NCBI RefSeq assembly: GCF_024055715.1 | Contig: NZ_JAMXMV010000002.1 | Location: forward strand, 496,001-560,000 | DNA length: 64,000 nt | Reading direction: 5' to 3' | Origin: Actinoallomurus soli | GTDB taxonomy: Bacteria; Actinomycetota; Actinomycetes; Streptosporangiales; Streptosporangiaceae | Shown: in pieces, positions 395 through 25,666 of the stretch | Layout: each line of letters opens with the position of its first letter | Numbering within the stretch: position 1 is the first letter of the stretch | Translations under genes and position numbers: made by a program | The notes under the pieces: generated by a model | Seen by the model: only the letters and a program-made list of their open reading frames with translations | What the model was told of the DNA's origin: nothing | The model's database searches: none

Positions 395-1636
395 TCATCT
401 ATTTCCCGTACCGTCCGATTGTCCGGCCGAAGAAGAGTTCCAGGCGACGGGCAGGCGGTCGACGCCGTACACCGCCGAGCGCTCGCGGGTCGGCACCTCG
501 GCCGCCGGGACGGCCAGGCGCAGGTCCGGGAAGCGGCCGAACAGCGCGGTCAGCGCGATGCGCAGCTCGGCCCGCGCGAGGTGCTGCCCGAGACACTGGT
601 GGGCCCCGTGGCCGAAGGCGAGGTGCCCGGTGGCGGAGCGGCCCAGGTCGAGGGCGTCCGGGTCGGCGAACCGCGCGGGGTCGCGGTTGGCGACCGGCAG
701 CGCGAGCACGACCGTCTCACCGGCCGCGATGACCTGGCCGTCGATCTCGACGTCGGCGAGCGCGGTCCGCCGTACGTCGAACTGCAGGATCGACAGGTAC
801 CGCAGCAACTCCTCGACCGCGCGCTCGGCGGTGACGGCGTCCGCGAGCGGGCGCGCCCGCTCGGTCGCGTCCGTGAGCAGCAGGAACGCGCCCAGGGAGA
901 GCATGCTCGACGTCGGCAGGTGGCCGGTGGCCAGCAGCACCATGCCGAGGTTGGTGAGCTCATCGTCGGTCAGGTCGCCGGTGACCACGGCGTGCGCCAG
1001 CAGGCCGTCGCCGGCCGCCGGGCCCGCGCCGGCGCGCAGTCGCGCGATGAGGCCGCGCACCGTCCCGGTGATCGACATGACCGCCTCGACCGCCCGCTCC
1101 GGGGCGGAGTCCAGGTCGTTCATCACCGCGGTGGCCGCTTGGATCGCGTGCCGGTCCTCCGGGGGGACGCCCAGGAGTTCGCAGATGACCAGGGCCGGGA
1201 TCGGCACGGCGAACGCGGTGACGAGGTCGGCGGGCGACCCGCCGTCCGCCATCGCGTCGAGGGCCTGGTCGGTGTGCGCCCGGATCGCCGGCGTCAGCTC
1301 CGCGACGCGCCGGGGCCCGAAGTGGGCGCTCAGCAGGCGGCGGTAGCGGGTGTGCTCGGGCGGGTCCATGTGCGGGAAGATGCCCGGTTCCGCCGGGGTC
1401 GGCCGCTCGTGCGCTCGTTCGCGGCCGACCGGCTGGTGCAGCAGCTCACGCCGGGTGCTGAAGCGCGGATCGGCGAGGATGGTCCGGGTCACGGCGTACC
1501 CGGTGGCGACCCAGCCGAGGTGCCCGTCCGGGTAGGCCAGCCGGCTGAGCGGGGGACGCCGCCGCAGCTCGACGGGCGGGTCGAAGGGGGTGGGCCGATC
1601 GGTCTCCAGCGGACGAGCCGCCCGGCCGTCGGTCAT
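395..1636 (-). CDS. Cytochrome P450
   Basis: 413 aa, the usual length of a soluble bacterial P450. The heme-binding loop is FGHGAHQCLG with the thiolate Cys at about residue 348, and the K-helix ExxR is EELLR. The I-helix reads TGHLPTSS where many family members have AGHETT: the conserved Thr is kept, but the acidic residue is Leu, so oxygen activation may be tuned differently. The substrate-free N-terminus resembles CYP105/107-like actinomycete P450s. The ATG at 1636 has a near-perfect GGGAGGTGA Shine-Dalgarno. It is divergent from the FAD monooxygenase across a 256 bp promoter region and is the likely oxidative tailoring enzyme of the cluster; ferredoxin and reductase are not encoded nearby. 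Confidence 0.9.
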   Translation of the reverse strand: MTDGRAARPLETDRPTPFDPPVELRRRPPLSRLAYPDGHLGWVATGYAVTRTILADPRFSTRRELLHQPVGRERAHERPTPAEPGIFPHMDPPEHTRYRRLLSAHFGPRRVAELTPAIRAHTDQALDAMADGGSPADLVTAFAVPIPALVICELLGVPPEDRHAIQAATAVMNDLDSAPERAVEAVMSITGTVRGLIARLRAGAGPAAGDGLLAHAVVTGDLTDDELTNLGMVLLATGHLPTSSMLSLGAFLLLTDATERARPLADAVTAERAVEELLRYLSILQFDVRRTALADVEIDGQVIAAGETVVLALPVANRDPARFADPDALDLGRSATGHLAFGHGAHQCLGQHLARAELRIALTALFGRFPDLRLAVPAAEVPTRERSAVYGVDRLPVAWNSSSAGQSDGTGNR

Positions 1637-1892
1637 CCGATCACCTCCCGCCCGGTCCCGGACCGCGACCGGCCCGGTGCATGATCATCATGCGCCGCCG
1701 ATTATGCATGACAAGTCCCAAAAAACACACCACTAGTCATTTCTGGACCGTCCGATTAGCATCGGCGCTGACCGAACGGACACATCTGTCAAACACGCTG
1801 GGCGAACGGACCGTCGCGAATGTCGCCGGTCCGTGATCGGCGACCCCGCGTCTCCTCCATCAGGCTCACTGCTATCCCGTATAGAGGTGTTA
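1637..1892. promoter_or_regulatory. Divergent promoter region of the biosynthetic cluster
   Basis: This 256 bp gap between the divergent P450 and FAD monooxygenase genes must hold the promoter of the ten-gene run. It is less GC-rich than its surroundings, with an A-tract around 1719-1726. The heptamer TGCATGA occurs at 1678-1684 and again at 1704-1710. The 11-mer ACCGTCCGATT at 1747-1757 also occurs at 410-420 near the 3' end of the P450. No clear -10/-35 pair or known regulator box is assigned. Confidence 0.45.
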
Positions 1893-3422
1893 ATGGCGGT
1901 TCGGCATGCTCAGGTGGCGGTTGTCGGCGGTGGACCGGTGGGGCTCATGCTCGCCTGCGAGGTGGCCCTGCACGACGTACCGGTGGTCGTCCTCGAACGG
2001 CTGCCCGCGATCGAATGGCGCCCGAAGGCCGAGGGGATCACCGGCCGGGCCGTCGACATCATGGACCGTCGCGGCCTGATGCTCGGGGTGACCGAGACCC
2101 CCATCACGCCGCCGACGCCCGAGCAACGCGCCCGCGTCGCGGCCGGTGAGCGGCGGCCGGACAGCCTGCTGCCCAAGGAGTTCCCCGGCGCGCGGCACTT
2201 CGCCAGCATGTTCCTGCTCCGCCCCGAGTCGCCGGACCTGCTGGTGCCCCAGCAGCTGCTGGAGGAGGACCTGGCCCGGCGCGCGGCGGAGCTGGGCGTC
2301 GAGGTGCGCCGCGGCCACACGGTCACCGGGTTCGCCCAGGACGACGACGGCGTACGCCTCGACGTCGAGGGGCCCGACGGGCCGTACGCGCTGGAGGCGG
2401 AGTGGCTGGCCGGCTGCGACGGCGGCCGCAGCACGATCCGGAAGCTGTCCGGCATCGCGTTCCCGGGCACGGACGGCGTCACGACCGGGTACCGCGCCTT
2501 CGCCGACATCGACGACCCCGACTTCCACCTGCCCGGATGGTTCCGCAAGGACGCCGGGCTGCTGGTGTACGAAGAGGGGCCGCCCCGGTTCATCACGCTG
2601 GAGTTCGACGGGCCGCCGGTGAACCGGGACGCGCCGATCACGCTGGAGGAGTTCCAGGGCTCGCTGCGCCGGCTCAGCGGCACCAAGGTGACGGTCACCG
2701 GGATCTCGAAGATCACCCGGTTCACCGACAACGCGCGGCAGGCGGAGACCTACCGCAGCGGCCGGGTCCTGCTCGTGGGCGACGCCGCGCACGTCCATTC
2801 GCATTGGAGCGGTCCAGGGCTGCGGCTCGGGCTGGGCGACGCCGTCAACGTCGGCTGGAAGCTCGCCGCCGTCGCCCGCGGCCGGTGCGACGAGAGCCTG
2901 CTCGACACCTACACCTCCGAGCGGCACCCGATCGGCGAGCAGACCCTGGAGATCCAGCGTGCCTCGATCGCGCTGATGCGGCCCGGCCCGCACGTCGACG
3001 CGCTGCGCCGGCTGCTCCGGGAGCTCCTGCTCCGCGACGAGGCGAACCGCCAGCTCACCGCCCTCGTCGACGACCTGCACATCTCCTACGACATGGGCGA
3101 CCCGGCCCTGAGGAGCCCCCTGGTCGGCCGGTACAGCCCGGACCTGCACCTGCGGCGCGCCGACGGCACCGTACGGGTCGCGGAGCTGCAGCGGAACGGC
3201 CGCGCCCTGCTGCTCGACCTGCGCGCCGACCCGGAACTGCGCGCCCTCGCCGCCCCCTGGTCCGACCAGGTGGATGTGGTGACCGCCGAGTGCGACGACG
3301 CCCCGGCGGACGCCCTGCTGATCCGGCCGGACGGCTTCGTCGCCTGGAGCACGCCCGCCGACCCGGTCTCGCTGGCCGGCGCCCTCGCCCGGTGGTTCGG
3401 CCCGCCCCCCGCGACCGCCTGA
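1893..3422 (+). CDS. FAD-dependent aromatic monooxygenase
   Basis: 509 aa, group A flavoprotein hydroxylase of the type that hydroxylates phenols or polyketide aromatics with NAD(P)H and O2. The N-terminal dinucleotide fold is seen in VVGGGPVGLMLACE (residues 10-23), the DG region in LAGCDGGRSTIRK, and the second FAD motif starts at GDAAH (about residue 297). The C-terminal thioredoxin-like domain of the family is present. The second FAD motif is odd: after GDAAHVHS the usual P-x-G-G-Q-G-L-N is H-W-S-G-P-G-L-R. The start is the ATG at 1893 with AGAGGTG just upstream; an in-frame ATG at 1833 lacks a ribosome binding site. As first gene of the run it probably hydroxylates the aryl moiety. Confidence 0.9.
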   Translation: MAVRHAQVAVVGGGPVGLMLACEVALHDVPVVVLERLPAIEWRPKAEGITGRAVDIMDRRGLMLGVTETPITPPTPEQRARVAAGERRPDSLLPKEFPGARHFASMFLLRPESPDLLVPQQLLEEDLARRAAELGVEVRRGHTVTGFAQDDDGVRLDVEGPDGPYALEAEWLAGCDGGRSTIRKLSGIAFPGTDGVTTGYRAFADIDDPDFHLPGWFRKDAGLLVYEEGPPRFITLEFDGPPVNRDAPITLEEFQGSLRRLSGTKVTVTGISKITRFTDNARQAETYRSGRVLLVGDAAHVHSHWSGPGLRLGLGDAVNVGWKLAAVARGRCDESLLDTYTSERHPIGEQTLEIQRASIALMRPGPHVDALRRLLRELLLRDEANRQLTALVDDLHISYDMGDPALRSPLVGRYSPDLHLRRADGTVRVAELQRNGRALLLDLRADPELRALAAPWSDQVDVVTAECDDAPADALLIRPDGFVAWSTPADPVSLAGALARWFGPPPATA

Positions 3423-3472
3423 GCCGGAATCCCCTGAGAACGACGACCGCCACCGCGCCATCGGAGGCCGTA

Positions 3473-4309
3473 GTGAGTGAATCCAGGCTGACCACGCTGC
3501 CCGCGTCGACCCCGGTCGACGCCGTGGTCGAGGTGGTCGACCGCGACGGAGCAGTGATCGTCGAGGACTTCCTCGACGCCGAGACGCTCCGCGGGCTGTG
3601 GGCCGACCTCGGCCCGGACCTCCAACGCCAGGCGGACGGCGACGGACGCCTGGTCGGCGAGAAGACCCGGATCCTCCCCGGCCTGGTCCGCCGGTCCGCG
3701 CACTCGATGACGATCATGCGGCAGCCGCACTTCCTCGGCCTCGCGCGGCACTTCCTGCAGCGCCCGGTCAAGGCGTGGCTCGGCGAGCAGCGCGTGGAGT
3801 TCGTCCCGACGATCCAGCTCGGCATCTCCCGGGCGATCCAGACCTGGCCGGGCGTCCCGATCCAGGCCCTGCACCGGGACGACACCGCCCACCTGCGTAC
3901 GCACCCGGGCCCGGAGAGCCGGGTCCAGGTCATGGTCGCCGCGAGCGACTTCAGCGCGCGGACGGGCGCGACCCGCGTGATCCCCGGCAGCCACCGGTGG
4001 GACGACGAGCGGGCGCCCCGCGACGAGGAGGCGGTGCCCGCCGCGATGCGGACCGGCTCCGCGCTGCTGTGGCTCGGCAGCACGTACCACGGCGCCGGCG
4101 TCAACTCCTCCGACGGGCCCCGCACCGGCCTGTCGTACGCCTACGACCTCGGCAACCTCCGCCAGGAGGAGAACCAGTACCTGTCCGTGCCGCTGGACGT
4201 GGTCCGCGGCTATCCCGAGGACATCCAGCGGCTCCTCGGCTACGAGGCGTGCCCGCCGATGTGCGGGCTCCACGAGCTGAGCGACCCGATGCTCCTGCTC
4301 CGACGCTGA
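3473..4309 (+). CDS. Phytanoyl-CoA dioxygenase (PhyH) family protein
   Basis: 278 aa, about the family length. It should be a non-heme Fe(II)/2-oxoglutarate oxygenase. The iron triad is visible as HRD at residues 134-136 and a distal His at 206 (TYHGAG), and R217 in GPRTGLS fits the Arg that binds the 2-oxoglutarate carboxylate. Family members hydroxylate, desaturate or halogenate small molecules. I favour hydroxylase/desaturase because the Asp of the HxD motif is intact, whereas halogenases lose it. The start is a GTG at 3473 with GGAGG nine bases upstream; it lies 50 bp after the FAD monooxygenase and 12 bp before the first KAS III gene. The substrate (aryl or sugar part) cannot be told. 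Confidence 0.85.
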   Translation: MSESRLTTLPASTPVDAVVEVVDRDGAVIVEDFLDAETLRGLWADLGPDLQRQADGDGRLVGEKTRILPGLVRRSAHSMTIMRQPHFLGLARHFLQRPVKAWLGEQRVEFVPTIQLGISRAIQTWPGVPIQALHRDDTAHLRTHPGPESRVQVMVAASDFSARTGATRVIPGSHRWDDERAPRDEEAVPAAMRTGSALLWLGSTYHGAGVNSSDGPRTGLSYAYDLGNLRQEENQYLSVPLDVVRGYPEDIQRLLGYEACPPMCGLHELSDPMLLLRR

Positions 4310-4321
4310 GAGGAGGGACGG

Positions 4322-5359
4322 ATGCGCACCCCCCACATGTACCTGCGCAGCATCGGCGTCCATCTGCCCCCGGTGGTCACCATCGAGACGGCCGTCGCGG
4401 AGGGCCGCTACCCGGCCGACGAGGTGGAGTACTTCCGGCTCGGCGGCGCGGCGGTGGCCGGCGACGTGCCCGCCCCGGAGCTGGCGCTGCGCGCCGCCCG
4501 GCAGGCGTTCGAGCGTTCCGGCGGGCTGTCCCCGCGCGACCTGGACCTCATGCTGTACTCCGACGTCTGGCACCAGGGGCCGGAGGGCTGGGAGCCGCAG
4601 TACTACCTGCAGCAGCACCTGGTCGGCGGCGACGTCCTCGCCGTCGAGATGCGGCACGGCTGCTGCGGGATGTTCAGCGCGCTGCAGCTGACCGCCGGGT
4701 ACCTGCGGCCCGACGGCGGCACCGCGCTGCTCGTCGGCGCCGACAACCACGGCACCCCGCTGGTCGACCGATGGCGGATGATCGAGGGCGCCGTGATGGG
4801 CGACGGCGGGTGCGCGCTGCTGGTCACGACGGAGGGCGGGTTCGCCGAGCTGCGCTCGGTCAACGTGGTCGTGCTGCCGGAGGCCGAGGCGGTCAACGAC
4901 GGGGGCGTCCCCATGTTCCCGCCGGACGCGACCGTCGGGCGCCCGCTGGACTTCGCCGCGCGCAACCGGGAGTTCCGCAAGCGGCTGATCAACGGCAACG
5001 GCGCGGACGTCATGCTCGCGATCCAGAAGACGCTGCTGGAGCTGGTCGACCGGACCCTCGGCGAGGCGGACGTCACCCTCGACGACGTGGCGCGCGTGGC
5101 GTTCCCGCACGGGCGCTGGGACGACCTGGAGCACCGGGGCGTCAACTGGCTCGGCCTGACGATGGCCGACACCACCTGGGACTACGGGGCGCGGATCGGG
5201 CACCTCGGGGTCGGCGACCAGTTCGTGGCCCTCGACCACCTCCTGGCCACCGGCGCGCTGGCCGCCGGCGACCACGTGCTGCTCGTCGGGCTCGGCGCCG
5301 GCACCACCATGGCCTGCGCCGTGCTGCGGATCCTCGGCATCCCGCCGGAGTACCGGTGA
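4322..5359 (+). CDS. KAS III-like acyltransferase A
   Basis: 345 aa, thiolase-fold protein of the FabH/KAS III superfamily. The nucleophile is C114 (HGCCGM, matching the Cys-x-Gly of FabH). The FabH catalytic His is kept as H263 (AFPHGRW). The FabH Asn is replaced: the GNTS region reads GHLGVGD with H294 and D299. Such changes are typical of KAS III relatives that esterify instead of making C-C bonds, for example the enzymes moving 6-methylsalicylate or orsellinate in the chlorothricin and avilamycin pathways. Sited directly before a paralogue and the aryl PKS, it probably transfers the PKS product. A ribosome binding site GAGAGGAGGG precedes the ATG. Confidence 0.85.
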   Translation: MRTPHMYLRSIGVHLPPVVTIETAVAEGRYPADEVEYFRLGGAAVAGDVPAPELALRAARQAFERSGGLSPRDLDLMLYSDVWHQGPEGWEPQYYLQQHLVGGDVLAVEMRHGCCGMFSALQLTAGYLRPDGGTALLVGADNHGTPLVDRWRMIEGAVMGDGGCALLVTTEGGFAELRSVNVVVLPEAEAVNDGGVPMFPPDATVGRPLDFAARNREFRKRLINGNGADVMLAIQKTLLELVDRTLGEADVTLDDVARVAFPHGRWDDLEHRGVNWLGLTMADTTWDYGARIGHLGVGDQFVALDHLLATGALAAGDHVLLVGLGAGTTMACAVLRILGIPPEYR

Positions 5360-5392
5360 GCGACGACGGCAGGGCGGCGACGGGGAGGCGGC

Positions 5393-6454
5393 ATGGAGAC
5401 GGCGGACATGTACATCAGCGGGGTCGGGTCGTACGTCCCCGCCCGGGTGAGCGTCGGCGACGCCGTGGCGGCGGGCCGGTACACCGCCGAGGAGGTCGAG
5501 CTGCACGGGCTCGCCTCGGTCGCGGTGGCCGGTGACGTCCCGGCTCCGGAGATGGCGCTGCGCGCGGCGCGCGGCGCGGTGGCCCGCAGCGGGCGGTCCC
5601 CCGCCGAGCTCGACCTGCTCCTGTACACCTCGACGTGGCACCAGGGCCCGGAGGGCTGGCCGCCGCAGTCGTACGTGCAACGCCGTCTCGTCGGCGACGG
5701 GGTCCTGTCCACCCAGCTCAAGCAGGGCTGCAACGGCATGCTCACCGCCCTCGAACTGGCCGCCTGCCACCTGCGGGCCGTGCCCGGCCGCCGGGCCGCG
5801 CTGCTCGTCACCGCCGACAACTACGGGACTCCGCTCGTCGACCGGTGGCGGATGCTGCCGGGGGCGGTCGCCGGGGACGCGGGCAGCGCGGTCGTGCTCG
5901 ACACCGAGCCGGGGTTCGCGCGGCTGGCGTCGGTGTGCACGCTGTCGGTGTCGCAGGCCGAGGAGATGCACCGCTGCGCCGAGCCGCTGTTCCCGCCCGG
6001 CATCCTCGAGGGCCGCGCGGTCGACTTCGCCGCGCACAACGACGAGTTCCGCCGGCGCGCCGTCGTCGAGGGCGACGGCACGAAGGTGCTCGTCACGCTC
6101 GACGAGCGGATGGCCGAGGCGATCGACCAGGCGCTGTCGGAGGCGGGGATCAAGCCGGGGGACGTGACGCGGGTGGCGTGCATGAACACCTCACGGGAGA
6201 TCGCCGACCAGATCTGCGAGATGCGGCTGGGTGTTCCGGCGTCCCGGTCGGCCTGGGAGTTCGGCCGGACGATCGGCCACTGCGGGGCGAGCGACCAGAT
6301 CCTCGCGCTGGAGCACCTGGTCCGCACCGGCGGCCTGGGCCCCGGCGACCACCTGCTGATGTTCGGCTTCGGACCCGGCGTGACGATCTCCGCCGCGGTC
6401 GTGGAGGTACTCGAGACGCCCGTCTGGGCGCGGGCACGGGGAGGGGATGCGTGA
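5393..6454 (+). CDS. KAS III-like acyltransferase B (paralogue with altered active site)
   Basis: 353 aa, clearly a tandem paralogue of the preceding gene: both share AVAGDVPAPE, WHQGPEGW and TPLVDRWRM at the same places. The nucleophile C113 is kept (QGCNGM). The position of the catalytic His of copy A is Asn here (N265 in CMNTSRE), while GHCGASD carries H296 and D301. The two copies therefore probably do different jobs, for instance one shuttling the aryl group between carriers and one esterifying the acceptor, as proposed for paired KAS III enzymes in chlorothricin biosynthesis. Its stop shares one base (TGATG) with the start of the PKS gene, so the two are translationally coupled. Confidence 0.85.
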   Translation: METADMYISGVGSYVPARVSVGDAVAAGRYTAEEVELHGLASVAVAGDVPAPEMALRAARGAVARSGRSPAELDLLLYTSTWHQGPEGWPPQSYVQRRLVGDGVLSTQLKQGCNGMLTALELAACHLRAVPGRRAALLVTADNYGTPLVDRWRMLPGAVAGDAGSAVVLDTEPGFARLASVCTLSVSQAEEMHRCAEPLFPPGILEGRAVDFAAHNDEFRRRAVVEGDGTKVLVTLDERMAEAIDQALSEAGIKPGDVTRVACMNTSREIADQICEMRLGVPASRSAWEFGRTIGHCGASDQILALEHLVRTGGLGPGDHLLMFGFGPGVTISAAVVEVLETPVWARARGGDA

Positions 6455-9400
6455 TGGACCGACCGGCCGAGGCCATCGCGGTGACGGGGATCGGCTGCCG
6501 CCTGCCGGGTGGCGCCGGCTCGCCGGACGCGTACTGGGACCTGCTGCGCGAGGGGCGGGACGCCAGTGGGCCCGCGCCCGCGGACCGCTGGCGGGACTAC
6601 GCCGACCGCGGCCCCTCGTACGCCGCGGCGGTGCGCCGCACCGTCCCGCGCGGGAGTTTCCTGGACGACGTCGCGGGCTTCGACGCGGAGTTCTTCGGGC
6701 TGACGCCGCGCGAGGCGGAGCTGATGGACCCGCAGCAGCGGCTCGTGATGGAGACCGCGTGGGAGGCCCTCGAACGCGCGGGCGTGTCCCCGGACGCGCT
6801 GGCCGGCACGGACGCGGGCGTGTACGTCGGCGTCTGCACCGGCGACTACGGCCACCGGCTGCTGGAGGACCTGCCCGGCATCGAGGCGTGGACCGGGATC
6901 GGCGCGGCGACCTGCGCGGTCGCCAACCGCGTGTCGTACTCCCTGGACCTGCGCGGCCCGAGCCTGGCGGTGGACACCGCGTGCTCGGCGTCGCTGGTCG
7001 CGGTTCACCTGGCCGTGCAGGCGCTGCGGGCCGGGGAGACGGACGTGGCGCTGGCCGGCGGCGTGAACCTCATCCTGTCCCCCGGCGAGACGCTGACCCT
7101 GGACGCCGCGGGCACGCTGGCGCCGGACGGGCGCAGCAAGTCGTTCGACGCCGCCGCCGACGGCTACGGGCGCGGCGAAGGCGCGGCCGTGGTCGTGCTC
7201 AAGCGGCTCTCCGACGCCGTACGGGACGGGGACCCGGTCCTCGCCGTCGTCCGCGGCAGCGCCGTCAACCAGGACGGCCGCACCGTGGGCATCATGGCGC
7301 CGTGCGGCCAGGCGCAGGAGCACGTCATGCGCCGCGCGCTGCGGCAGGCGGGCATCGAGCCGGGCACGGTCGGGTACGTCGAGGCGCACGGCACCGGCAC
7401 CGCCGTGGGCGACCCGCTCGAGGCCGCCGCGCTCGGCGACGTGTACGGGGCCGGCCGCCCGGCGGACCGGCCGTGCCTGATCGGCTCGGCCAAGTCGAAC
7501 ATCGGCCACCTGGAGGGCGCCGCGGGCATCGCCGGGCTGGTCAAGGCCGTCCTGGCGCTGCACCACGGCGAGCTCCCGCCGAGCCGGCTCGACACACCCA
7601 CCCCGGCCGTCGACTGGGCGGGCGCGGGGCTGCGCGTGGTGGACGCGCCGACGCCGTGGCCGGACGCCGGGCACCCGCGCCGGGCCGCCGTCTCCGCCTT
7701 CGGCTACGGCGGGACCGTCGCCCACGTGGTCCTCGAAGAGGCGCCGCCCGCGCGGCGTGCCGGTGAGGGGACGGCGGGACGGCTGTTCCCGGTGTCCGCC
7801 GCGTCACGGGCCGCCCTGCGACAGGCCGCGGGGAACCTGGCCGGCGTCGCCGGCGACCTGCCGGCCGCCGGCGTCGGGCACACGCTCGCGCTGCGCCGGG
7901 CGCACCTGGCCGAACGCGCCGTCGTCGCGGCGGACGACCCGGCCGCGCTGACCGCCGGGCTGCGCGCCCTGGCCGCCGGCACCCCGCACGCGTCGGTGAC
8001 CACCGGGCGGGTGCTGGGCGACCCCGGCCCCGGGCCGGTGTTCGTGTTCTCCGGCCACGGCTCGCAGTGGGCCGGGATGGGCCGGGACCTGCTGGCGGCC
8101 GAACCCGCGTTCGCCGCCGTGATCGACGAGCTGGAGCCGGTGTTCGCCGCCGAGATCGGTTTCTCGCCCCGGGAGGCGCTCGGCGGCGGTGAACTGACCG
8201 AGGTCGACCGGGTCCAGACCATGATCTTCGCGATGCAGCTCGGCCTGGTCGAGCTGTGGCGCGCGTACGGCGTCCGCCCGCACGCGGTGATCGGCCACTC
8301 GGTCGGTGAGATCGCCGCCGCCGTGACGGCCGGGGCGCTCAGCCGCCTGGACGGCGCCCGGCTGATCTGCCGGCGGTCCCGGCTGCTGCGGCGCGTCGCC
8401 GGGCGCGGCGCGATGGCCATGGTGCAGCTGCCGTTCGCCGACGCGGCCGCGCGGCTGGCGGGCCGTACCGACGTGGTCGCCGCGATCGCCTCCTCGCCCG
8501 GCTCGACGGTCGTCTCCGGCGAACCGGACGCCGTCGCCGAGGTCCTGTCCGGCTGGCTGGAGGAGGGCGTCCCGGCGCGCCGGGTCGCCTCGGACGTGGC
8601 GTTCCACGGGCCGCAGATGGACCCGCTGCTGGCCGAGCTGACCGCCGCCGCGGCCGGCCTGACGCCCGGCGCCCCGCACCTGCGGGTCTACTCGACGGCG
8701 CTGGACGACCCGCGGGCGGCGCCCGGCTTCGACGGCGCGTACTGGGCGGCCAACCTGCGCCGGCCGGTGCGCCTGGCCGACGCGGTGACCGCGGCGGCGG
8801 CCGACGGGTACCGCGCCTTCGTCGAGGTCTCCCCGCACCCGGTCGTCACCCACTCGGTGCTGGAGACCCTGAGCGTGCACGGCCACGAGGACGTCTTCGT
8901 CGGTCCGTCGCTGCGCCGGAACCGTCCCGCGCGGGACACCCTCCTGGCGAGCGTGGCCGCCGCGCACTGCGCCGGACTGGACGTCGACTGGCGGCGGCTG
9001 CAGCCGGCCGGCGGGCCGGTCGCGCTGCCCACCTACCCGTGGCAGCGCCGCAGGCACTGGCGCGCGCCCTCCGCCCCGGACGCCGGCGGGCGCGGCCACG
9101 ACCCGGACGCGCACACGCTGCTCGGCGACGGCGTCGAGCTCGCGGGAACCGACGTACGGCTCTGGCGCACCGCGCTGGACGACCAGACCCGGCCCTACCC
9201 CGGCAGCCACGCCATCGAAGGAGTGGAGATCGTGCCGGCCGCAGTGCTGGCGGTGACGTTCCTCGCCGCCTCGGGCGGCCGGGCGCTCGGCGCGGTGACG
9301 ATGTCGGCGCCGCTGCTGACCGCCGACCGCCGCGAGGTCCAGGTCGTACGGCAGGGAGCCGAGCTGCGGCTGGCCGCCCGCACGGCCGGCGACCCGGACG

Positions 9401-10377
9401 CCGCCTGGCAGATGATCGCCACCGCGACCGCCCTCGCCGAGCCGGCCACCGCCACGGCCGCCGACGCCACGGTGGTCGCCGCCACGACGGCCACGACCGC
9501 CCAGGCCACCCAGACCCCCCAGGCCGTTCAGGCCGTTCAGGCCGTTCAGGCCGCCACGGCCACCGCCGCCGAGGCCATGGCCATGGCCGCCATCGCCGCC
9601 GAGGCCGCCGCCGCCGTGACAGATCCGGGGAACGGGCCGGTTCCGCCCGTGCTGCCGCTCGCGCCGGCGGATCCGGGCTCGGTCACGCGGCGGCTCGCCG
9701 CCGTCGGCGTGCCCGGGACCGGCTTCGACTGGACCGTCGAGGAGCTCCTGTCCGGCCACGGACTGCTGCGCGCCCGCGTACGGTGCGGGCCGTCGGGCAC
9801 CTGGGCGCCGATCCTCGACGCGGCGATGTCGGTGGCGCCGAGCGCGTTCCCCGGGGACCCGCTGCTGCGGATGGTCACGAACATCGACCGGCTCGTCGTG
9901 GCCGGGGAGCCACCGGACACGGTGGACATCGAGGTGTGGCTCGACCCCGACCGTGCCGACACCGTCCAGGTCCGGATGACCGATCCCGCCGAGACGGTCG
10001 TCGGCCGGCTCGACGGGCTGCGGTACCCGGTGATCGACGCGCCGGCCGCGCGGGAGAACGGCACCGCCGGCGCAGGCGCCACCGAGTCGTTCGCCGAGCT
10101 CGGGCCGGAGGAGCTGCGCGCCTTCCTGCTCCGGGAGGTCGGCGCGCAGATCGCCCGGGAGATGCGGCTCGATCCCGCCGACCTGTCGCCGCACCGCCCG
10201 CTGGTCGAGCAGGGCCTGGACTCGGTGCTGACCGTGGTCGTGCGCCGCCGGCTGGAGAAACGGTTCCGGTGCTCGCTGCCGACCACGCTCCTGTGGCGGC
10301 AGCCGACCATCGTCGCGGTCTCCGACTACATCGCCGGGCTGGTGTCCGCGCCGAACGGGAGCGCCGATGCGGGGTGA
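6454..10377 (+). CDS. Iterative type I polyketide synthase, KS-AT-DH/TH-like-ACP (orsellinate-synthase type)
   Basis: 1307 aa, close to the roughly 1300 aa of AviM-type orsellinic acid synthases. KS: C177 in DTACSAS, H312 in EAHGTGT and H352 in KSNIGH. AT: S616 in GHSVGE, and FH at residue 718 fits malonyl selection. A double-hotdog DH-like/thioester-hydrolase-like domain follows, with H919 in YPGSHAIEGVEIVPAA. The ACP has phosphopantetheine Ser 1257 in EQGLDSVLT. No KR or Rossmann motif lies between the DH-like domain and the ACP, which argues for a fully unreduced tetraketide (orsellinate) rather than 6-methylsalicylate. Oddity: residues about 995-1055 are an Ala/Thr/Gln-rich insert within the DH-like region. 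The ATG at 6454 follows GAGGGG. Product is inferred. Confidence 0.88.
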   Translation: MDRPAEAIAVTGIGCRLPGGAGSPDAYWDLLREGRDASGPAPADRWRDYADRGPSYAAAVRRTVPRGSFLDDVAGFDAEFFGLTPREAELMDPQQRLVMETAWEALERAGVSPDALAGTDAGVYVGVCTGDYGHRLLEDLPGIEAWTGIGAATCAVANRVSYSLDLRGPSLAVDTACSASLVAVHLAVQALRAGETDVALAGGVNLILSPGETLTLDAAGTLAPDGRSKSFDAAADGYGRGEGAAVVVLKRLSDAVRDGDPVLAVVRGSAVNQDGRTVGIMAPCGQAQEHVMRRALRQAGIEPGTVGYVEAHGTGTAVGDPLEAAALGDVYGAGRPADRPCLIGSAKSNIGHLEGAAGIAGLVKAVLALHHGELPPSRLDTPTPAVDWAGAGLRVVDAPTPWPDAGHPRRAAVSAFGYGGTVAHVVLEEAPPARRAGEGTAGRLFPVSAASRAALRQAAGNLAGVAGDLPAAGVGHTLALRRAHLAERAVVAADDPAALTAGLRALAAGTPHASVTTGRVLGDPGPGPVFVFSGHGSQWAGMGRDLLAAEPAFAAVIDELEPVFAAEIGFSPREALGGGELTEVDRVQTMIFAMQLGLVELWRAYGVRPHAVIGHSVGEIAAAVTAGALSRLDGARLICRRSRLLRRVAGRGAMAMVQLPFADAAARLAGRTDVVAAIASSPGSTVVSGEPDAVAEVLSGWLEEGVPARRVASDVAFHGPQMDPLLAELTAAAAGLTPGAPHLRVYSTALDDPRAAPGFDGAYWAANLRRPVRLADAVTAAAADGYRAFVEVSPHPVVTHSVLETLSVHGHEDVFVGPSLRRNRPARDTLLASVAAAHCAGLDVDWRRLQPAGGPVALPTYPWQRRRHWRAPSAPDAGGRGHDPDAHTLLGDGVELAGTDVRLWRTALDDQTRPYPGSHAIEGVEIVPAAVLAVTFLAASGGRALGAVTMSAPLLTADRREVQVVRQGAELRLAARTAGDPDAAWQMIATATALAEPATATAADATVVAATTATTAQATQTPQAVQAVQAVQAATATAAEAMAMAAIAAEAAAAVTDPGNGPVPPVLPLAPADPGSVTRRLAAVGVPGTGFDWTVEELLSGHGLLRARVRCGPSGTWAPILDAAMSVAPSAFPGDPLLRMVTNIDRLVVAGEPPDTVDIEVWLDPDRADTVQVRMTDPAETVVGRLDGLRYPVIDAPAARENGTAGAGATESFAELGPEELRAFLLREVGAQIAREMRLDPADLSPHRPLVEQGLDSVLTVVVRRRLEKRFRCSLPTTLLWRQPTIVAVSDYIAGLVSAPNGSADAG
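9523..9549 (+). repeat. Three perfect 9-bp tandem repeats inside the PKS gene
   Basis: GCCGTTCAG is repeated three times without mismatch and is read as Ala-Val-Gln three times. It sits in a longer Ala/Thr-rich low-complexity stretch (about 9436-9620) that interrupts the DH-like domain. Confidence 0.95.
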
Positions 10378-11215
10378 GCCGACGGTCGCCGCTCAGCGGG
10401 CCGACGTCGCGCGGATCGCGCGGCTCGCGACCCGATGCCGGCTCGTCCTGCTGGAGATGATCCACCGGGCGGGGTCCGGGCACGCCGGCTCGTCGCTGTC
10501 CTGCGCGGACATCGTCAGCGTGCTGAAGTTCGACCAGCTGGACCCGGGCCCGGACCGGTCCACCGGCGACGTGTTCGTCCTGTCCAAGGGCCACGCGGCG
10601 CCGGCCTGGTACGCCGCACTGATCGTCGGCGGCGACCTGCCCGCCGAGGAGGTCGGCACGCTGCGGGCCCTGGACAGCCGCCTGCAGGGGCACCCGGACC
10701 GTACGCGGCTGGGGCTGGTCGACGTCAGCACCGGCGCGCTCGGGCAGGGCCTGTCGGTGGCCGTCGGGCGGGCCCTCGCCCGGCGGCTGCACGGCCGGAA
10801 CTCCACGGTCTACTGCCTGCTCGGCGACGGCGAATGCCAGGAGGGGCAGGTGTGGGAGGCGTTCCTGTACGCCGGCGCGCACCGGGTGCCCGGCCTGGTG
10901 GCGATCATCGACCACAACGGCAGCCAGAGCGACGGCGCGGTCGCCGACATCCTGCCGCTGTGCCCGCTGCCGGAGAAGCTGCGCGCGTTCGGCTGGCACG
11001 TCGCGGAGGTGGACGGCCACGACCACGGCGAAGTACGCGACGCGCTGCGGCGACGCGACCGCGACGGGCCCTCGGTGATCATCGCGCACACCCGCAAGGG
11101 ACATCTCGGCCCCGACCGCGTCCTGCTGAACGGCAGTCACAGCGACCTCCCCTCGGCGGCGGAGTACGCCGCCGCGGTCGACTACCTGGAGACCCTCCTG
11201 GAGGCGCACGAATGA
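10367..11215 (+). CDS. Transketolase, N-terminal (thiamine pyrophosphate-binding) subunit
   Basis: 282 aa, corresponding to the PP domain of a split transketolase. The thiamine diphosphate/Mg motif is GDGECQEG (starting at residue 153), ending about 30 residues later in an Asn (IIDHNGSQ). Substrate-phosphate and cofactor residues SGHAGSSLS and SKGHAAPA near the N-terminus fit the family. The gene overlaps the PKS end by 11 bp and the C-terminal subunit gene by 4 bp (ATGA), so it belongs to the cluster and not to the central pentose-phosphate pathway. It would move a two-carbon ketol unit, possibly to make a heptulose or another unusual ketose phosphate for the sugar part. Confidence 0.9.
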   Translation: MRGEPTVAAQRADVARIARLATRCRLVLLEMIHRAGSGHAGSSLSCADIVSVLKFDQLDPGPDRSTGDVFVLSKGHAAPAWYAALIVGGDLPAEEVGTLRALDSRLQGHPDRTRLGLVDVSTGALGQGLSVAVGRALARRLHGRNSTVYCLLGDGECQEGQVWEAFLYAGAHRVPGLVAIIDHNGSQSDGAVADILPLCPLPEKLRAFGWHVAEVDGHDHGEVRDALRRRDRDGPSVIIAHTRKGHLGPDRVLLNGSHSDLPSAAEYAAAVDYLETLLEAHE

Positions 11216-12261
11216 CTTCCACGCGGGACTGGTTCGGCACCGCGCTGGTCGAGATCGCCCGCGAGTACGACCACATCGTGGTGGTGAACTGCGACCTCGC
11301 CAAGGCCACCCGGACGCTGCCGTTCAAGGAGGAGTTCCCCGACCGGTTCTTCGAGTGCGGCATCGCGGAGGCCAACGCCATCGGCGTGGCCGCCGGGCTG
11401 GCGCAGGAGGGATTCCGGCCGTTCGTCGCGAGCTTCGGTCACTTCCTGACCGGGAAGTTCCTGGAGATCTTCCAGACGGTCGGGCTCAACGACGCGGGGG
11501 TGGTCCTGGTCGGGACCCACGCCGGGCTGGCGATCGGGCGGGACGGGCCGACCCAGATGGGGCTGCGGGACCTGGCGCTGATGCGGACCCTGCCGAACGT
11601 CGGGGTGTTCCAGCCCGCCGACGGCACCGAGACCTGGCAGATGATGGCCCACCTGGCGACCGACCGGCGCCCCGCCTACCTGCGCCTCTGCCGGCAGCCG
11701 CTGCCGGAGGTGCACACCGACGGGTACCACTTCCGGCCCGGGATCCCGCACGTGCTGCGCGCGGGCGCCGACGTGGTGGTGTTCGCGATGGGCGGCACGG
11801 TGCCGGTCGCGGTCGAGGCCGCCGACCGGCTCGCCGCTCACGGAGCCCTCGCCCACGGAGCCCCCGCGAACGGGTCCGTCGCAGGCGGGCCGGTCGCAGG
11901 CGGGCTCGCCGCGGGTGGGGTCTCAGCGGCCGGAGTCGCCGCGGGCGGGCCGGCTGCGCGTGGGATCGCGCCCACCGTCGTGAACGTGTCCTCGCTGCCG
12001 GTGGACCGCGAGACGGTCGAGCGCATCGTCGCCGGGCACCAGCGGGTGCTGGTGGTCGAGGACCACTACGCCGTGGGCGGCCTCGCCGACGAACTGGGCC
12101 GGATCGTGCTCGGCCTCCCCGACCGGCCCCGGTTCGACGTCCTGGCCGTGCCCGACTACGGGCAGGCGGGTCCACCGGAGGACCTCTACCGCCGGTACCG
12201 GCTGGACGCGGAGGGGATCGCGGCGCACGTCACCGCGCTCCTCCAGGACGCCCCCCGGTGA
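11212..12261 (+). CDS. Transketolase, C-terminal (pyrimidine-binding) subunit
   Basis: 349 aa. It contains the Pyr domain with the activating Glu in FFECGIAEANAIGVAAGLA, the aminopyrimidine-pocket Phe region (PFVASFGHFLTGKF), then the transketolase C-terminal domain (VLVVEDHYAVGGLADELG). It pairs with the upstream N-terminal subunit as in other split transketolases of secondary metabolism. Oddity: between the core and the C-terminal domain there is a 45-residue insert of nine A-x-G-x-x pentapeptides coded by 15-bp tandem repeats. It starts with ATGA overlap on the previous gene and ends in a GTGA overlap with the GT20 gene. Confidence 0.9.
   Translation: MTSTRDWFGTALVEIAREYDHIVVVNCDLAKATRTLPFKEEFPDRFFECGIAEANAIGVAAGLAQEGFRPFVASFGHFLTGKFLEIFQTVGLNDAGVVLVGTHAGLAIGRDGPTQMGLRDLALMRTLPNVGVFQPADGTETWQMMAHLATDRRPAYLRLCRQPLPEVHTDGYHFRPGIPHVLRAGADVVVFAMGGTVPVAVEAADRLAAHGALAHGAPANGSVAGGPVAGGLAAGGVSAAGVAAGGPAARGIAPTVVNVSSLPVDRETVERIVAGHQRVLVVEDHYAVGGLADELGRIVLGLPDRPRFDVLAVPDYGQAGPPEDLYRRYRLDAEGIAAHVTALLQDAPR
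11836..11970 (+). repeat. Nine 15-bp tandem repeats inside the transketolase C-subunit gene
   Basis: Nine consecutive degenerate 15-bp units, each starting with GC (or GCG/GCA) and coding a pentapeptide of the form A-x-G-x-x (AHGAL, AHGAP, ANGSV, AGGPV, AGGLA, AGGVS, AAGVA, AGGPA, ARGIA). The reading frame is kept. The insert is absent from ordinary transketolases. Confidence 0.9.
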
Positions 12262-13688
12262 CGGCACTCGAGACGAGGACGGCGACCGGAGTGAGATTGA
12301 TCGTCTGCAGCAACAGCGCGCCGCGGTGGCAGGACGGCGCCGGCCTGCTGCCCCGCTCCCCCGGCGGACTGGTCCCGCTGCTGGCCACCCTCCTGGGCGA
12401 GCACGGCGGCGACTGGGTGTGCACGATGCCCGCCGACGGCCCGCGGGGCGCGGAGCCCGTGGAGGTGACACGGCTGCCCGGTGACGTGACCCTGCACCGG
12501 CTGCGCCTGCCCCCGGCGACCGTGGAACAGCACTACGAGCAGGTCGGCGTACGGGTGCTGCTGTGGCTGTTCCACTACCTGCTCGACACCGCACGGCAGC
12601 CGGGCGAGGGCCTCGCGGAGGCGTGGCCGGCGTACGAGGCGGTCAACCGGGCGTACGCCGACCGGGTGACGTCGCTGATGACGGGGTCGGCGGACGAGTT
12701 CGTGCTGGTCAACGACCATCACCTGTTCCTCGTCCCGGAGATGCTGGGGCGGCGCGCGGACCGCCGGGGCCGGGTCGCGTTCTTCCAGGGGCTGCCGTGG
12801 TGCGAGCCGGAGTACTTCGGGGTGCTGCCCGCCTCCATCCGCGACCGCGTCCTGACCAGCCTGCTGTGCGCGGACGTGGTCGGCTTCCACTGCACCCGGT
12901 GGGCGCGGGCCTTCCTGGGCTGCTGCGCGCGCTACCTGCCCGGCTGCGCGGTCGACGAGGACGGCGCGACGTTCGACGGGCACCGGACCCGCGTGACCGT
13001 GGCGCCGTTCCCGCTGGACGTCGCGATGGTGGAACGGCTGCGCGGTGAGCCGGCCACCGCGGAGTGGCGGGCGCGGCTCGACCGGGACGCCGGCGGACGG
13101 CGGATGCTCGTCCGCGCCGACCGCATCGACCTGTGGAAGAACCTGCCGCGCGGCTTCGCCGCGTACCGGAGCCTGCTCGACCGCGACCCGGGTCTGGCCG
13201 GGGAGTGGTGGTTCTGCGCGGTGGCCACTCCGCCGGGCCGTCCCACCGAGCGCACCCGTGACCTGCGGCGCGAGTGCGAGGAGACGGTCGCCGACCTGAA
13301 CGAGCGGTTCGGCGCGCCGGGCCGGCCGGCCGTCTCGCTGATCTATCCGGACCTGGCGACCACGCGCAACTGCGTGGTGGCCGCCCTGTCGAGGGCCGAC
13401 CTCACGCTGGTGAACCCGACCTTCGACGGGATGAACCTGGTCGCCAAGGAGGCCCTGTACCTCGGCGAACGCGGACCGCTGCTGCTGTCCGTCAACGCGG
13501 GCGCCTACGAAGGACTCGCCGGGCACGTGACGCCGGTGCATCCGTTCGACGTCGAGGCCACCGCCTCGGCGCTGCGGGACGCGATGACCCGCGGTACGGC
13601 CCCGGCGGAGCGGGCGGCGGCACGCCGCCTGCTGCGCGGCCAGGACGCGACCGACTGGCTGAACCGAATGATGGAGGCGGAACGTTGA
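12258..13688 (+). CDS. GT20-family glycosyltransferase or pseudo-glycosyltransferase (OtsA/VldE-like)
   Basis: 476 aa, the size of trehalose-6-phosphate synthase (OtsA). Visible GT20 landmarks: VNDHHLFLVPEML (OtsA WVHDYHL region), VRADRIDLWKN (the R-x-D-x-x-K phosphate-binding region), and FDGMNLVAKEAL at about residue 389 for the nucleotide-sugar ribose. The N-terminal glycine loop is SPGGLVPLL. OtsA makes trehalose-6-phosphate; VldE, of the same fold, joins a cyclitol nucleotide to a cyclitol phosphate without a glycosidic bond. In this cluster it probably joins two sugar or cyclitol units to make the acceptor for the aryl acid. The GTG start at 12258 overlaps the previous stop (GTGA); a second GTG at 12291 is possible. 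Confidence 0.8.
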   Translation: MTALETRTATGVRLIVCSNSAPRWQDGAGLLPRSPGGLVPLLATLLGEHGGDWVCTMPADGPRGAEPVEVTRLPGDVTLHRLRLPPATVEQHYEQVGVRVLLWLFHYLLDTARQPGEGLAEAWPAYEAVNRAYADRVTSLMTGSADEFVLVNDHHLFLVPEMLGRRADRRGRVAFFQGLPWCEPEYFGVLPASIRDRVLTSLLCADVVGFHCTRWARAFLGCCARYLPGCAVDEDGATFDGHRTRVTVAPFPLDVAMVERLRGEPATAEWRARLDRDAGGRRMLVRADRIDLWKNLPRGFAAYRSLLDRDPGLAGEWWFCAVATPPGRPTERTRDLRRECEETVADLNERFGAPGRPAVSLIYPDLATTRNCVVAALSRADLTLVNPTFDGMNLVAKEALYLGERGPLLLSVNAGAYEGLAGHVTPVHPFDVEATASALRDAMTRGTAPAERAAARRLLRGQDATDWLNRMMEAER

Positions 13689-14491
13689 GGACGACCGAGG
13701 TCACCACGCGGTACGGACGCATCAGCCGGCTGGCCGACCAGGCCGCCGCCGGGGCCTATCTGTTCGCCGAGCACACGATCGATCCCGGACAGGCCACCCC
13801 CTTCCGGACCCATGCCCGCGACCACCGGACCTTCGTCGTCATCCAGGGCCGGGTCAGGCTGGACACCGCCCGCGACGACGGCGCGACCGAGTCGGCGGTG
13901 TACGACCACCTGAGCGGCTGGCACGCCCTCCCCGGCTGCGTCTACCGGATCGTGGGCGCGGGCGCCGGACCGGCGGTCGTCATCGAGGCCGGATCGGTGC
14001 TCGGCGAGACCAGGGAGGCGACCGGGCCGGACATCCCGGACGCGGTGGCCTGCCGCTGCCCGGACGTCTCGGACTACACGGTGCACAAGCCCTGGGGCAG
14101 CGAGGTCTGGTACACCCAGAACCTCCCCGACGTCCCGTACGCGCTGAAGCGCATCCGGATGACCGAGGGGCACCAGTCCTCGCTGCAGTCCCACCGGCAG
14201 AAGCTGGAGACCAACTACGTCATCGAGGGTGAGGCCACGGTGCTGAGCGGGGCCATGGCCCCGGACGACCTGACCGCGGTGATCGACGTGGGGAGCCTGA
14301 CCACCACCGTCCACCGGCCCCGCTCCGGCTGGACCAACCCGCCGGGCGAGTTGCACCGGGTGATCGCGCGAACGGACTACACCTCCATCGAGATCTCCAC
14401 ACCCGAACTCGACGACGTCATCCGGTGGCAGGACGACGCCGGGCGCGGACACGGCCGGATCGACTCCGAGCACGTGGGCGGCCGGTCGTGA
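13685..14491 (+). CDS. Double-cupin sugar-phosphate isomerase-like protein
   Basis: 268 aa with two cupin barrels. The first (residues about 25-105) has the DHRTFVVIQGRV motif, the second (about 130-250) begins at VHKPWGSEVWY and has SHRQKLETNYVIEGEA, which is the type II mannose-6-phosphate isomerase/RmlC-like cupin pattern with metal ligands H and E. It probably isomerises or epimerises a phosphorylated sugar of the pathway; the exact reaction is unknown. The start is a TTG at 13685 whose TTGA overlaps the previous stop; no better start exists upstream. It overlaps the next gene by 4 bp. Confidence 0.7.
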   Translation: MRTTEVTTRYGRISRLADQAAAGAYLFAEHTIDPGQATPFRTHARDHRTFVVIQGRVRLDTARDDGATESAVYDHLSGWHALPGCVYRIVGAGAGPAVVIEAGSVLGETREATGPDIPDAVACRCPDVSDYTVHKPWGSEVWYTQNLPDVPYALKRIRMTEGHQSSLQSHRQKLETNYVIEGEATVLSGAMAPDDLTAVIDVGSLTTTVHRPRSGWTNPPGELHRVIARTDYTSIEISTPELDDVIRWQDDAGRGHGRIDSEHVGGRS

Positions 14492-15132
14492 GCCTCGCCG
14501 AGACGATCGGGCTGTACCTCGCCGAGAAGCGCCGGATCCTGGACGACTTCCCCGTCGCGGTGCTGGAGCGCGCCGCCGCGATGCTGTTCGCGACCTACGA
14601 CCGGGGCGGCACCGTCTACGCCATGGCCAACGGCGGGAACGCCGGCACCCTCGACCACTTCTACTGCGATTTCAAGCACCACCCGTTCGTGACGGAGGAC
14701 AAGACCCGGCCGCTCCCGGCGGACGTTCCTCGGTTGAGCTTCGTCAACCTGTGCGGGTCGGCGGCCGAGCTGACCGGGCTCGTCAACGACATCGGCTTCG
14801 AGGACATGTTCGCGGCGGCCCTGGCCCCCGTCGTCACCTCGAAGGATCTGGTCATGGCCTATTCCGGCAGCGGCAACTCCGCGAACGTGACGAAGGCCCT
14901 GGAGGTGGCCGCCGCCGCGGGGGCCGGGACGTTCGCCATGACCAAGGGCGACGGCGGCCGGTGCAAGGACCTGGCCGAGGTGTGCCTGGTCGTGCCCGGC
15001 ACGTCCCGGTTCCCCGGCCAGGTCGGCAAGAACGACAACAACTTCCACTTCGAGGACCTGATGCTGTCGGTCAACCACATCCTCGTCGGCCTCCTGAAGG
15101 AACGCGTCGCGGCACACGCCTCCGGGAGGTGA
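14488..15132 (+). CDS. SIS-domain sugar isomerase, GmhA (sedoheptulose-7-phosphate isomerase)-like
   Basis: 214 aa, one SIS domain. MANGGNAGTLDHFYCDF corresponds to the GNGGSAxxAQHFxxE start of phosphoheptose isomerases, and AYSGSGNSANV is the SIS phosphate-binding Ser/Gly loop. GmhA-like enzymes turn ketoheptose 7-phosphate into aldoheptose 7-phosphate; LmbN of lincomycin biosynthesis does the same for an octose. With a transketolase in the same operon, a higher-carbon aldose phosphate (C7 or so) is a reasonable product. GTG start in a 4 bp overlap with the cupin gene. It is the last gene of the run. Confidence 0.8.
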   Translation: MSLAETIGLYLAEKRRILDDFPVAVLERAAAMLFATYDRGGTVYAMANGGNAGTLDHFYCDFKHHPFVTEDKTRPLPADVPRLSFVNLCGSAAELTGLVNDIGFEDMFAAALAPVVTSKDLVMAYSGSGNSANVTKALEVAAAAGAGTFAMTKGDGGRCKDLAEVCLVVPGTSRFPGQVGKNDNNFHFEDLMLSVNHILVGLLKERVAAHASGR

Positions 15133-15139
15133 CGGGTCC

Positions 15140-15198
15140 CCGCTCGGCCAGTGGCAGGATGCTTGCGACAGTCGTCATCCAGGCCACTGGCCGAGCGG
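15140..15198. promoter_or_regulatory. 16-bp perfect inverted repeat upstream of the GlxA-type regulator
   Basis: CCGCTCGGCCAGTGGC at 15140-15155 is matched exactly by its reverse complement at 15183-15198, leaving a 27 bp centre that contains TTGCGACA. The right arm ends 15 bp before the ATG and just before the GGAGGAGGG ribosome binding site. It could be an autoregulatory operator, or a terminator for the upstream operon, though no T-run follows. Confidence 0.7.
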
Positions 15199-15213
15199 TC
15201 GGAGGAGGGCCCG

Positions 15214-17179: not shown

Positions 17180-17199
17180 GGCGCCCACCCTCCCAGATG

Positions 17200-17218
17200 G
17201 CGGACCGATCCTGTCCGC
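17200..17218. promoter_or_regulatory. Candidate operator between WYL regulator and ridA
   Basis: Inverted repeat GCGGAC (17200-17205), 7 bp spacer, GTCCGC (17213-17218) in the 118 bp divergent intergenic region. Position and symmetry fit an operator for the WYL regulator; no binding evidence exists. Confidence 0.5.
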
Positions 17219-17297
17219 TTGGGACCCCAGGGTGATGCCGAGGCCCGCGGAGCGGCCTCGGTCCTCACACGGACCCCGAACCTCCCAGGGGAGACTC

Positions 17298-17690: not shown

Positions 17691-17883
17691 GACGCACAGC
17701 GGCCGAGGTGGCCGGTGGCGACGACGTGAGCCGTACCGGCGTCCCTGGTCCGGCAGGAGTTGGCGAGATCCTTGCGGCCGGTGGCGAAAGGCGTGGCGGG
17801 ATCCTTGCTCACGTTGTCCTGCAGGCCACTGTCGGTCTCGTACTCGCCTGCCGACCATGGAGGGCGAGACGAGAGGAGCCTCC

Positions 17884-25631: not shown

Positions 25632-25666
25632 GCCGGCCTCCTTCGTACGTCATCTTCGGGGGGTAC

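Follow-up and report, generated by a model that had tools for sequence, protein, structure and literature searches.

A conserved eleven-gene block in Actinoallomurus soli joins an orsellinate-type polyketide module to a sugar module with an altered trehalose-synthase-like glycosyltransferase

We analysed a 64,000-nucleotide stretch of the Actinoallomurus soli genome (the window; RefSeq assembly GCF_024055715.1, contig NZ_JAMXMV010000002.1, positions 496,001 to 560,000 of the forward strand; genome of 9.42 Mb in 60 contigs) and found an eleven-gene biosynthetic block (Table 1) that splits into an aryl module and a sugar module. The aryl module comprises a cytochrome P450 (P450-1), an FAD-dependent monooxygenase (FMO), a PhyH-type dioxygenase, two acyltransferases (KSa and KSb) resembling beta-ketoacyl-acyl carrier protein synthase III (KAS III) and an iterative type I polyketide synthase (PKS); the sugar module comprises a split transketolase (subunits TKN and TKC), a family 20 glycosyltransferase (GT20), a double cupin (CUP) and a SIS-domain isomerase (SIS). 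This kind of cluster is known broadly, as an iterative aryl PKS with KAS III transfer, and the combination with an unusual trehalose-synthase-like sugar module is new. We report as observed the gene content, order, conservation and modularity of the block, along with the active-site residues checked in the KAS III enzymes, PKS, transketolase, GT20 and SIS. For the product, we tentatively propose an oxidised orsellinate held as an aryl mono- or diester on a trehalose-like 1,1-disaccharide and thus related to brartemicin; this reading is quite possible, if somewhat short of probable.

The ten plus-strand genes (1893-15132) are real, and frame analysis by GC content at third codon positions (GC3) agrees. 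Their spacings are 50 bp (FMO-PhyH), 12 bp (PhyH-KSa), 33 bp (KSa-KSb), -1 bp (KSb-PKS) and -11 bp (PKS-TKN), followed by -4 bp, with overlapping stop and start codons, for each of TKN-TKC, TKC-GT20, GT20-CUP and CUP-SIS. Hence, the spacing of the ten genes fits one operon. A previous annotation made from the letters alone (the sequence-only reading) had described ten coupled plus-strand genes with 1-11 bp overlaps or short gaps, and this description is borne out by gaps of at most 50 bp, by GC3 and by the presence of the block in three more species. That reading had also counted three oxygenases including the P450; the Pfam domains are as claimed, but the P450 (395-1636) lies on the minus strand, outside the ten. 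Since P450-1 is divergent from the operon, it counts as the eleventh gene. A promoter scan placed a promoter-like site at its start (minus strand, 1714-1687), where shuffles give a mean of 0.1, and the single terminator-like site of the terminator scan lies inside the PKS gene and is not above chance.

The block recurs in Actinoallomurus spadix, Actinoallomurus iriomotensis and Actinomadura alba, so four species of two genera share it. Using the GT20 as query in named genomes, we confirmed 10 loci among 25 candidate stretches, and the block is carried by 3 of these 10. The P450-1 orthologue adjoins the block in A. spadix (90-91% identity), A. alba (85%) and A. iriomotensis (84-85%). For eight of the eleven genes, a set that leaves out the P450, FMO and PKS, the ratio of nonsynonymous to synonymous substitution rates was 0.17-0.36 in the 16 comparisons of the window with A. 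alba and with A. iriomotensis; the eight genes examined are under purifying selection. The cupin was found in three of the eight genomes of the genus, its own included. SIS has matches at E <= 1e-20 in 10 of the 341 family genomes searched, and in five of these the identity reaches at least 73%; among 394 class genomes, only its own gave a match at E <= 1e-35. TKN matches at E <= 1e-50 were found in 7 of 325 class genomes, the best outside its own genome being 50% identical. On plasmids we found no relative of SIS, and identity to the aryl-module KSb did not exceed 62% (Nonomuraea gerenzanensis).

To the right of the block, a nucleotide search found no match between A. alba, A. iriomotensis and the window; to its left, A. 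alba and A. iriomotensis gave none past a second P450. Hence, the block has sharp ends. In these two species the left end consists of an aldo/keto reductase and this second P450, without a short-chain dehydrogenase/reductase (SDR). The corresponding window P450 (P450-2, Table 1) is 84% identical to both left-end enzymes and 73-79% identical to a P450 beside the stand-alone aryl loci described below; A. spadix also has a P450-2 homologue to the right of its block (76% identical to that of the window). The aldo/keto reductase was not found in the window or in the 20 kb to its left, and its best match in the A. soli genome (60%) is on another contig.

For the aryl half, the PKS (1307 aa) has its KS, AT, HxxxGxxxxP and ACP-serine motifs, and a Pfam scan found no ketoreductase (KR) family in it. 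The predicted domain layout is that of orsellinic-acid synthase of the bacterial iterative type I, with orsellinate as the predicted product. Among solved structures ChlB3 is the nearest relative of both KSa and KSb, and the Cys-His-Asp triad (ChlB3 Cys113, His296 and Asp301) is kept in 31 of 31 aligned KAS III sequences. Both assignments agree with the sequence-only reading, which had named an orsellinate-type PKS and KAS III acyltransferases. ChlB3 is described as carrying 6-methylsalicyl from a PKS to an acyl carrier protein (ACP) by means of this triad (PMC9573744). At the MN motif KSb has Asn and KSa has His; hence, the two enzymes are unlikely to be redundant. The aryl unit may plausibly be oxidised by the FMO, PhyH protein and P450, and the FMO is related to rifampin monooxygenases, at a score below the family cut-off (337 vs 800 bits). 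With these oxygenases present, the aryl unit probably has a higher oxidation level than that of brartemicin. Ring expansion of the tropolone type by an FMO, a dioxygenase and a P450 is known from fungi; we dropped it as a candidate because the PKS shows no methyltransferase domain. A related cassette of the order KAS III, ACP-like gene, KAS III and orsellinate-type PKS was seen at four loci in other genomes of the family, with KSb about 62% identical.

The GT20 of the sugar half scored 207 bits against trehalose-phosphate synthase (5lqd) and about 125 bits against VldE, and its score of 215 bits is well short of the 565 bits required by the OtsA equivalog model. In all 12 members of its clade, which we call SNS, Ser replaces the Arg of the SNR motif and Gly replaces the donor-pocket His. 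In comparison, 10 other GT20 proteins in the alignment have Arg in six of the six readable at that position and His in 10 of 10. All 12 clade members retain the donor-phosphate Arg/Lys and the DGxNLxxKE motif. We take the two replaced residues to correspond to R9 (SNR Arg) and H154 (donor-pocket His) of Escherichia coli OtsA, and presume the usual roles for the donor-phosphate Arg/Lys and the DGxNLxxKE motif. As judged from its sequence, the window GT20 is not a normal OtsA. Among the matches listed for 200 order-level genomes, one other (51%, E 1.8e-138) reached this level, and the next best were at most 41% identical, with E of about 1e-67 or weaker.

Elsewhere in the clade, six loci have the GT20 next to a ThiG-type protein cluster (ThiG by Pfam in the one member scanned) and a major facilitator superfamily (MFS) transporter. 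The Streptomyces plasmid NZ_CP108468.1 has the same arrangement around a 48% relative annotated as trehalose-6-phosphate synthase, and a gene annotated as nitronate monooxygenase holds the ThiG place. The six loci and the plasmid are candidate orphan 2-thiosugar loci; BexX, a ThiG-type protein, is described as making the 2-thiosugar of BE-7585A (PMC4784017). At two further clade loci the GT20 adjoins a protein whose sole match is a cupin below the cut-off (E 0.052) at one locus, with no match at the other.

The nearest solved relative of the split transketolase is the split enzyme from Carboxydothermus, and sequence comparison showed that TKN and TKC have the thiamine diphosphate and substrate residues of split transketolase. 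One Ser that we take to be a phosphate ligand in human transketolase is Ala in four of four block orthologues, and the remaining phosphosugar-site residues, with their presumed roles, are kept. The TKC of the window strain also has an insert of about 40 aa rich in Gly, Ala and Val that is absent in the three orthologues. CUP exceeds the Pfam gathering cut-offs of PF01050 (25.6 vs 23.6 bits), the type II mannose-6-phosphate isomerase cupin family, and of PF07883 (30.2 vs 27.2 bits), and an orthologue in genome G271 scored 26.7 bits (PF01050); the isomerase activity is predicted. No solved structure matched CUP below E 0.5. SIS matches phosphoheptose isomerases at up to 59 bits, and its phosphate loop, SGSGNS, is kept in four of four block orthologues (SGSGDS in G271).

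Some labels of the sequence-only reading need qualifying. OtsA/VldE-like is right in that the enzyme is a GT20 of the trehalose-synthase type, and the VldE part is too specific. A pseudo-disaccharide product is not supported, as there is no cyclitol gene among the domain hits of the block. SIS is a distant relative of GmhA that has the phosphate loop but scores only 60 bits where the GmhA equivalog cut-off is 209, and the C7 sugar of that reading stays a candidate.

The aryl module also occurs alone. KSb matches at E <= 1e-70 were found in 78 of 338 family genomes, and 16 genomes have KSb at 82% identity or more, namely the four block carriers and 12 genomes of one other genus. A 4-kb flank from one of the 12 (G093) is 84% identical to Nonomuraea gerenzanensis over its whole length. 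Hence, this genus is very likely Nonomuraea. In its 12 stand-alone aryl loci (13 regions were fetched and one with only a divergent KAS III was excluded), KSb is 82-87% identical. P450, FMO, PhyH and KSb are present at 12 of 12 and KSa plus PKS at 10 of 12, the PKS match at one locus covering the first 991 residues only at the cut-off used; the two loci without KSa and PKS, one of them in G271, keep the other four genes. The transketolase pair, GT20, cupin and SIS were found at none of the 12 (18-19 kb fetched, E <= 1e-5), and in the four of these 12 genomes that the GT20 search covered, its matches are only at the ordinary level (E 1e-55 to 1e-58 vs 1e-138 for the clade member). An aldo/keto reductase lies beside the P450 at 10 of the 12 loci, and a second P450 with an SDR at seven.

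A midpoint-rooted tree of P450, FMO, PhyH and KSb places the four sugar-bearing clusters together (support 0.88), nested among the Nonomuraea-like loci. In the simplest history, the sugar module was probably gained once and the two modules were then retained together. In G271, a cupin (55%) and SIS (73%) immediately adjoin a trehalose synthase of the TreT type, and the aryl locus is 40 kb away. That these two isomerase genes also accompany another glycosyltransferase of the trehalose type supports a trehalose-like sugar.

In the pathway that we propose, the KR-less iterative PKS would build an orsellinate-type acid on its own ACP, and the FMO, PhyH dioxygenase and two P450s would oxidise it. 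The two ChlB3-like KAS III enzymes would load the aryl group on their cysteine and pass it to acceptor hydroxyls. The split transketolase may shift a two-carbon unit from one phosphosugar to another, the ketose or aldose form may be set by the mannose-6-phosphate-isomerase-type cupin and GmhA-like SIS, and the GT20 would join the resulting sugar, or sugar phosphate, to a nucleotide-sugar-derived unit via a 1,1 bond. Every substrate, the 1,1 bond and the sugar as aryl acceptor are what we infer from the genes rather than read directly. In the genus that is very likely Nonomuraea, the presence of an orsellinate PKS and two acyltransferases without the sugar genes fits brartemicin-like chemistry on trehalose from primary metabolism, and a later-added sugar module fits a changed disaccharide. 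A more specific version, in which the sugar module makes a non-glucose aldose phosphate (possibly C7 or C8), the altered GT20 couples it 1,1 to a hexose and the KAS III pair aroylates each half with oxidised orsellinate, is doubtful. The sequence-only reading had already suggested an orsellinate ester of a trehalose-like sugar; the Nonomuraea-like aryl module and the cupin-SIS-TreT group of G271 strengthen this, and the placing of aryl and sugar in one molecule is where we still infer. Its statement that no cluster with this set is described agrees with our searches of open-access literature, which found none; one may exist elsewhere.

Brartemicin from Nonomuraea is described as trehalose with 2,4-dihydroxy-6-methylbenzoyl (orsellinoyl) groups at O-6 and O-6' (PMC4393326), and the genome paper of its producer names no cluster or genes (PMC6838623). 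Its two orsellinates esterified to alpha,alpha-trehalose and its genus, that of the likely aryl-module carriers, resemble what we found, whereas brartemicin needs no oxygenases, transketolase, cupin or SIS, and the window GT20 departs from OtsA. Chlorothricin (ChlB1, ChlB2, ChlB3 and ChlB6) shares an iterative type I aryl PKS and two aryl-transfer steps, one by ChlB3, but there the ChlB1 product is 6-methylsalicylate, the aryl group ends up on the chlorothricin scaffold and ChlB2 is a discrete ACP, a gene for which the window block lacks. The 2-thiosugar genes of BE-7585A (BexX and BexG2) enter the comparison through the GT20 clade, some loci of which have a ThiG-family gene and an MFS transporter; the window block has no ThiG gene and has instead the transketolase, SIS and cupin. 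VldE of validamycin is also a GT20, but the window enzyme is nearer OtsA and no cyclitol genes were seen.

Several results weigh against the aryl ester of a trehalose-like disaccharide. No discrete ACP, as in the two-step transfer of chlorothricin, was found among the 11 genes, the KSa-KSb gap being 33 bp (the rest of the genome was not searched), and in the four more distant cassettes an ACP-like gene lies between the two KAS III genes. In G093 and G264, which have the aryl module as well, a KSa orthologue (82-83%) without KSb and PKS lies at another locus; hence, KSa may serve other acceptors. The loss of two OtsA pocket residues throughout the clade makes plain trehalose a doubtful product, and the lack of KSa and PKS at the aryl locus of G271 weakens the link of its cupin-SIS pair to acylation. 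The Pfam scan of the 11 genes found no phosphatase, nucleotide-sugar gene or exporter, a tree built from KSb only has poor resolution and leaves A. alba apart from the other three sugar-bearing clusters, and our searches of open-access literature found no metabolite described for block-bearing strains.

The stand-alone aryl loci without sugar genes and the lone KSa orthologues would also suit a single compound whose aryl acceptor is another scaffold or a carrier protein encoded elsewhere, the sugar module glycosylating or decorating separately; ChlB3 itself is described as handing its aryl group to an ACP and not to a sugar (PMC9573744). We consider this unlikely, as no modular PKS or nonribosomal peptide synthetase domains were found among the reading frames scanned in the block, in the left 20 kb (10 of 13 genes) and in a selection from the rest of the window. 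In addition, trehalose-type GT20 genes are present in 200 of 200 order genomes searched, including 4 of the 12 aryl-locus genomes; hence, trehalose is probably available there. Were the sugar module a trehalose or stress-sugar operon that hitch-hikes on the promoter of the aryl operon, membership of the GT20 in the OtsA family and the commonness of trehalose operons would be expected. This explanation is very improbable given the rarity of the GT20 clade and of SIS in the searches above, the overlapping stop and start codons and the conservation in four species of two genera, and we rejected an ordinary trehalose operon on the clade rarity, the OtsA score shortfall and the pocket residues.

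The Ser-to-Ala change at the presumed phosphate ligand, in four of four orthologues, is in keeping with a different role for the transketolase, in which an oxidised (quinone) aryl unit receives a two-carbon keto fragment from a 2-ketose before a P450 acts, and the products of GT20, cupin and SIS would be a separate sugar or the C2 donor. Such a role is known for Rif15, a transketolase described as having two subunits encoded by overlapping genes and as working with the P450 Rif16 on rifamycin S (PMC6002545). Like that polyketide cluster, the window has P450s and a split transketolase from overlapping genes; its transketolase pair also overlaps the PKS gene, and its FMO is related to rifampin monooxygenases at a score below the family cut-off. 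However, the window pair travels with the sugar-isomerase and GT20 genes and not with the aryl genes, and none of the 12 Nonomuraea-like stretches with an aryl locus contains it. Hence, the aryl chemistry there seems not to need a transketolase, which came with the sugar genes. The other phosphosugar-site residues are also kept, and we judge this role decidedly unlikely, a little more so than a different aryl acceptor, though these two are the main rivals of the proposed aryl ester.

The stand-alone Nonomuraea-like aryl module is a concrete candidate for making an oxidised brartemicin relative, and in the window cluster the same aryl module is joined to sugar genes that include a changed trehalose synthase. 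The stand-alone and joined modules together make testable both paired KAS III acylation of 1,1-disaccharides and the product of the SNS-clade GT20. This clade ties the window cluster to loci of the 2-thiosugar type, and the function of its GT20 would inform several orphan clusters. Should the non-glucose version be true, this would be the first aryl-trehalose-type cluster known to us and a case of a trehalose synthase evolved for a new sugar.

Table 1. Genes of the block and the separate second P450, with positions in the window
Feature	Position	Strand	Evidence and remarks
Cytochrome P450 (P450-1)	395..1636	-	Divergent from operon; PF00067 4e-20
FAD aromatic-ring monooxygenase (FMO)	1893..3422 (alternative start 1833)	+	PF01494 1.9e-67; PF21274 7.1e-28
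PhyH-type Fe(II)/2-oxoglutarate dioxygenase	3473..4309	+	PF05721 1.8e-30; nearest solved chains SwnH1/SwnH2
KAS III-like acyltransferase KSa	4322..5359	+	Nearest solved chain ChlB3 7eqi, 382 bits; Cys-His-Asp triad
KAS III-like acyltransferase KSb	5393..6454	+	ChlB3, 429 bits; Cys-His-Asp triad
Iterative type I PKS, KS-AT-DH/TH-like-ACP, no KR	6454..10377	+	PF00109, PF02801, PF00698, PF21089, PF00550
Split transketolase N subunit (TKN)	10367..11215	+	PF00456 2.5e-37; nearest solved 6yak (split transketolase N component)
Split transketolase C subunit (TKC)	11212..12261	+	PF02779, PF02780; 6yaj, 186 bits
GT20 trehalose-phosphate-synthase-like glycosyltransferase, SNS clade	12258..13688	+	PF00982 8.2e-76; clade residues
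Double cupin (CUP), C half like mannose-6-phosphate isomerase C terminus	13685..14491	+	PF01050, PF07883; G271 orthologue
SIS-domain GmhA-like phosphosugar isomerase (SIS)	14488..15132	+	PF13580, 30.6 bits vs cut-off 27
Second P450 of the predicted pathway (P450-2)	38068..39273	-	23 kb right of block in window strain

Genes next to the block were considered as members and rejected. AraC (15151-16161) and GAPDH (17857-18882) genes are matched at the A. spadix block and not at the A. alba or A. iriomotensis loci, and a WYL gene (16193-17299) is matched at none of the three. Of the 13 left neighbours (beta-lactamase-type, penicillin-amidase, transporter and others), 10 were scanned and none of these is a pathway gene. 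Further right, genes for a methyltransferase, a terpene synthase (PF19086) and an SrpI-like encapsulin shell protein with a cyclic-nucleotide-binding domain lie in a row on the minus strand (24762-28543). This group looks like a terpene synthase set with a family 2 encapsulin, which we take to be for 2-methylisoborneol. A proteasome-family subunit (PF00227, 3.7e-41) is encoded at 31673-32572 on the plus strand, among genes of other kinds.

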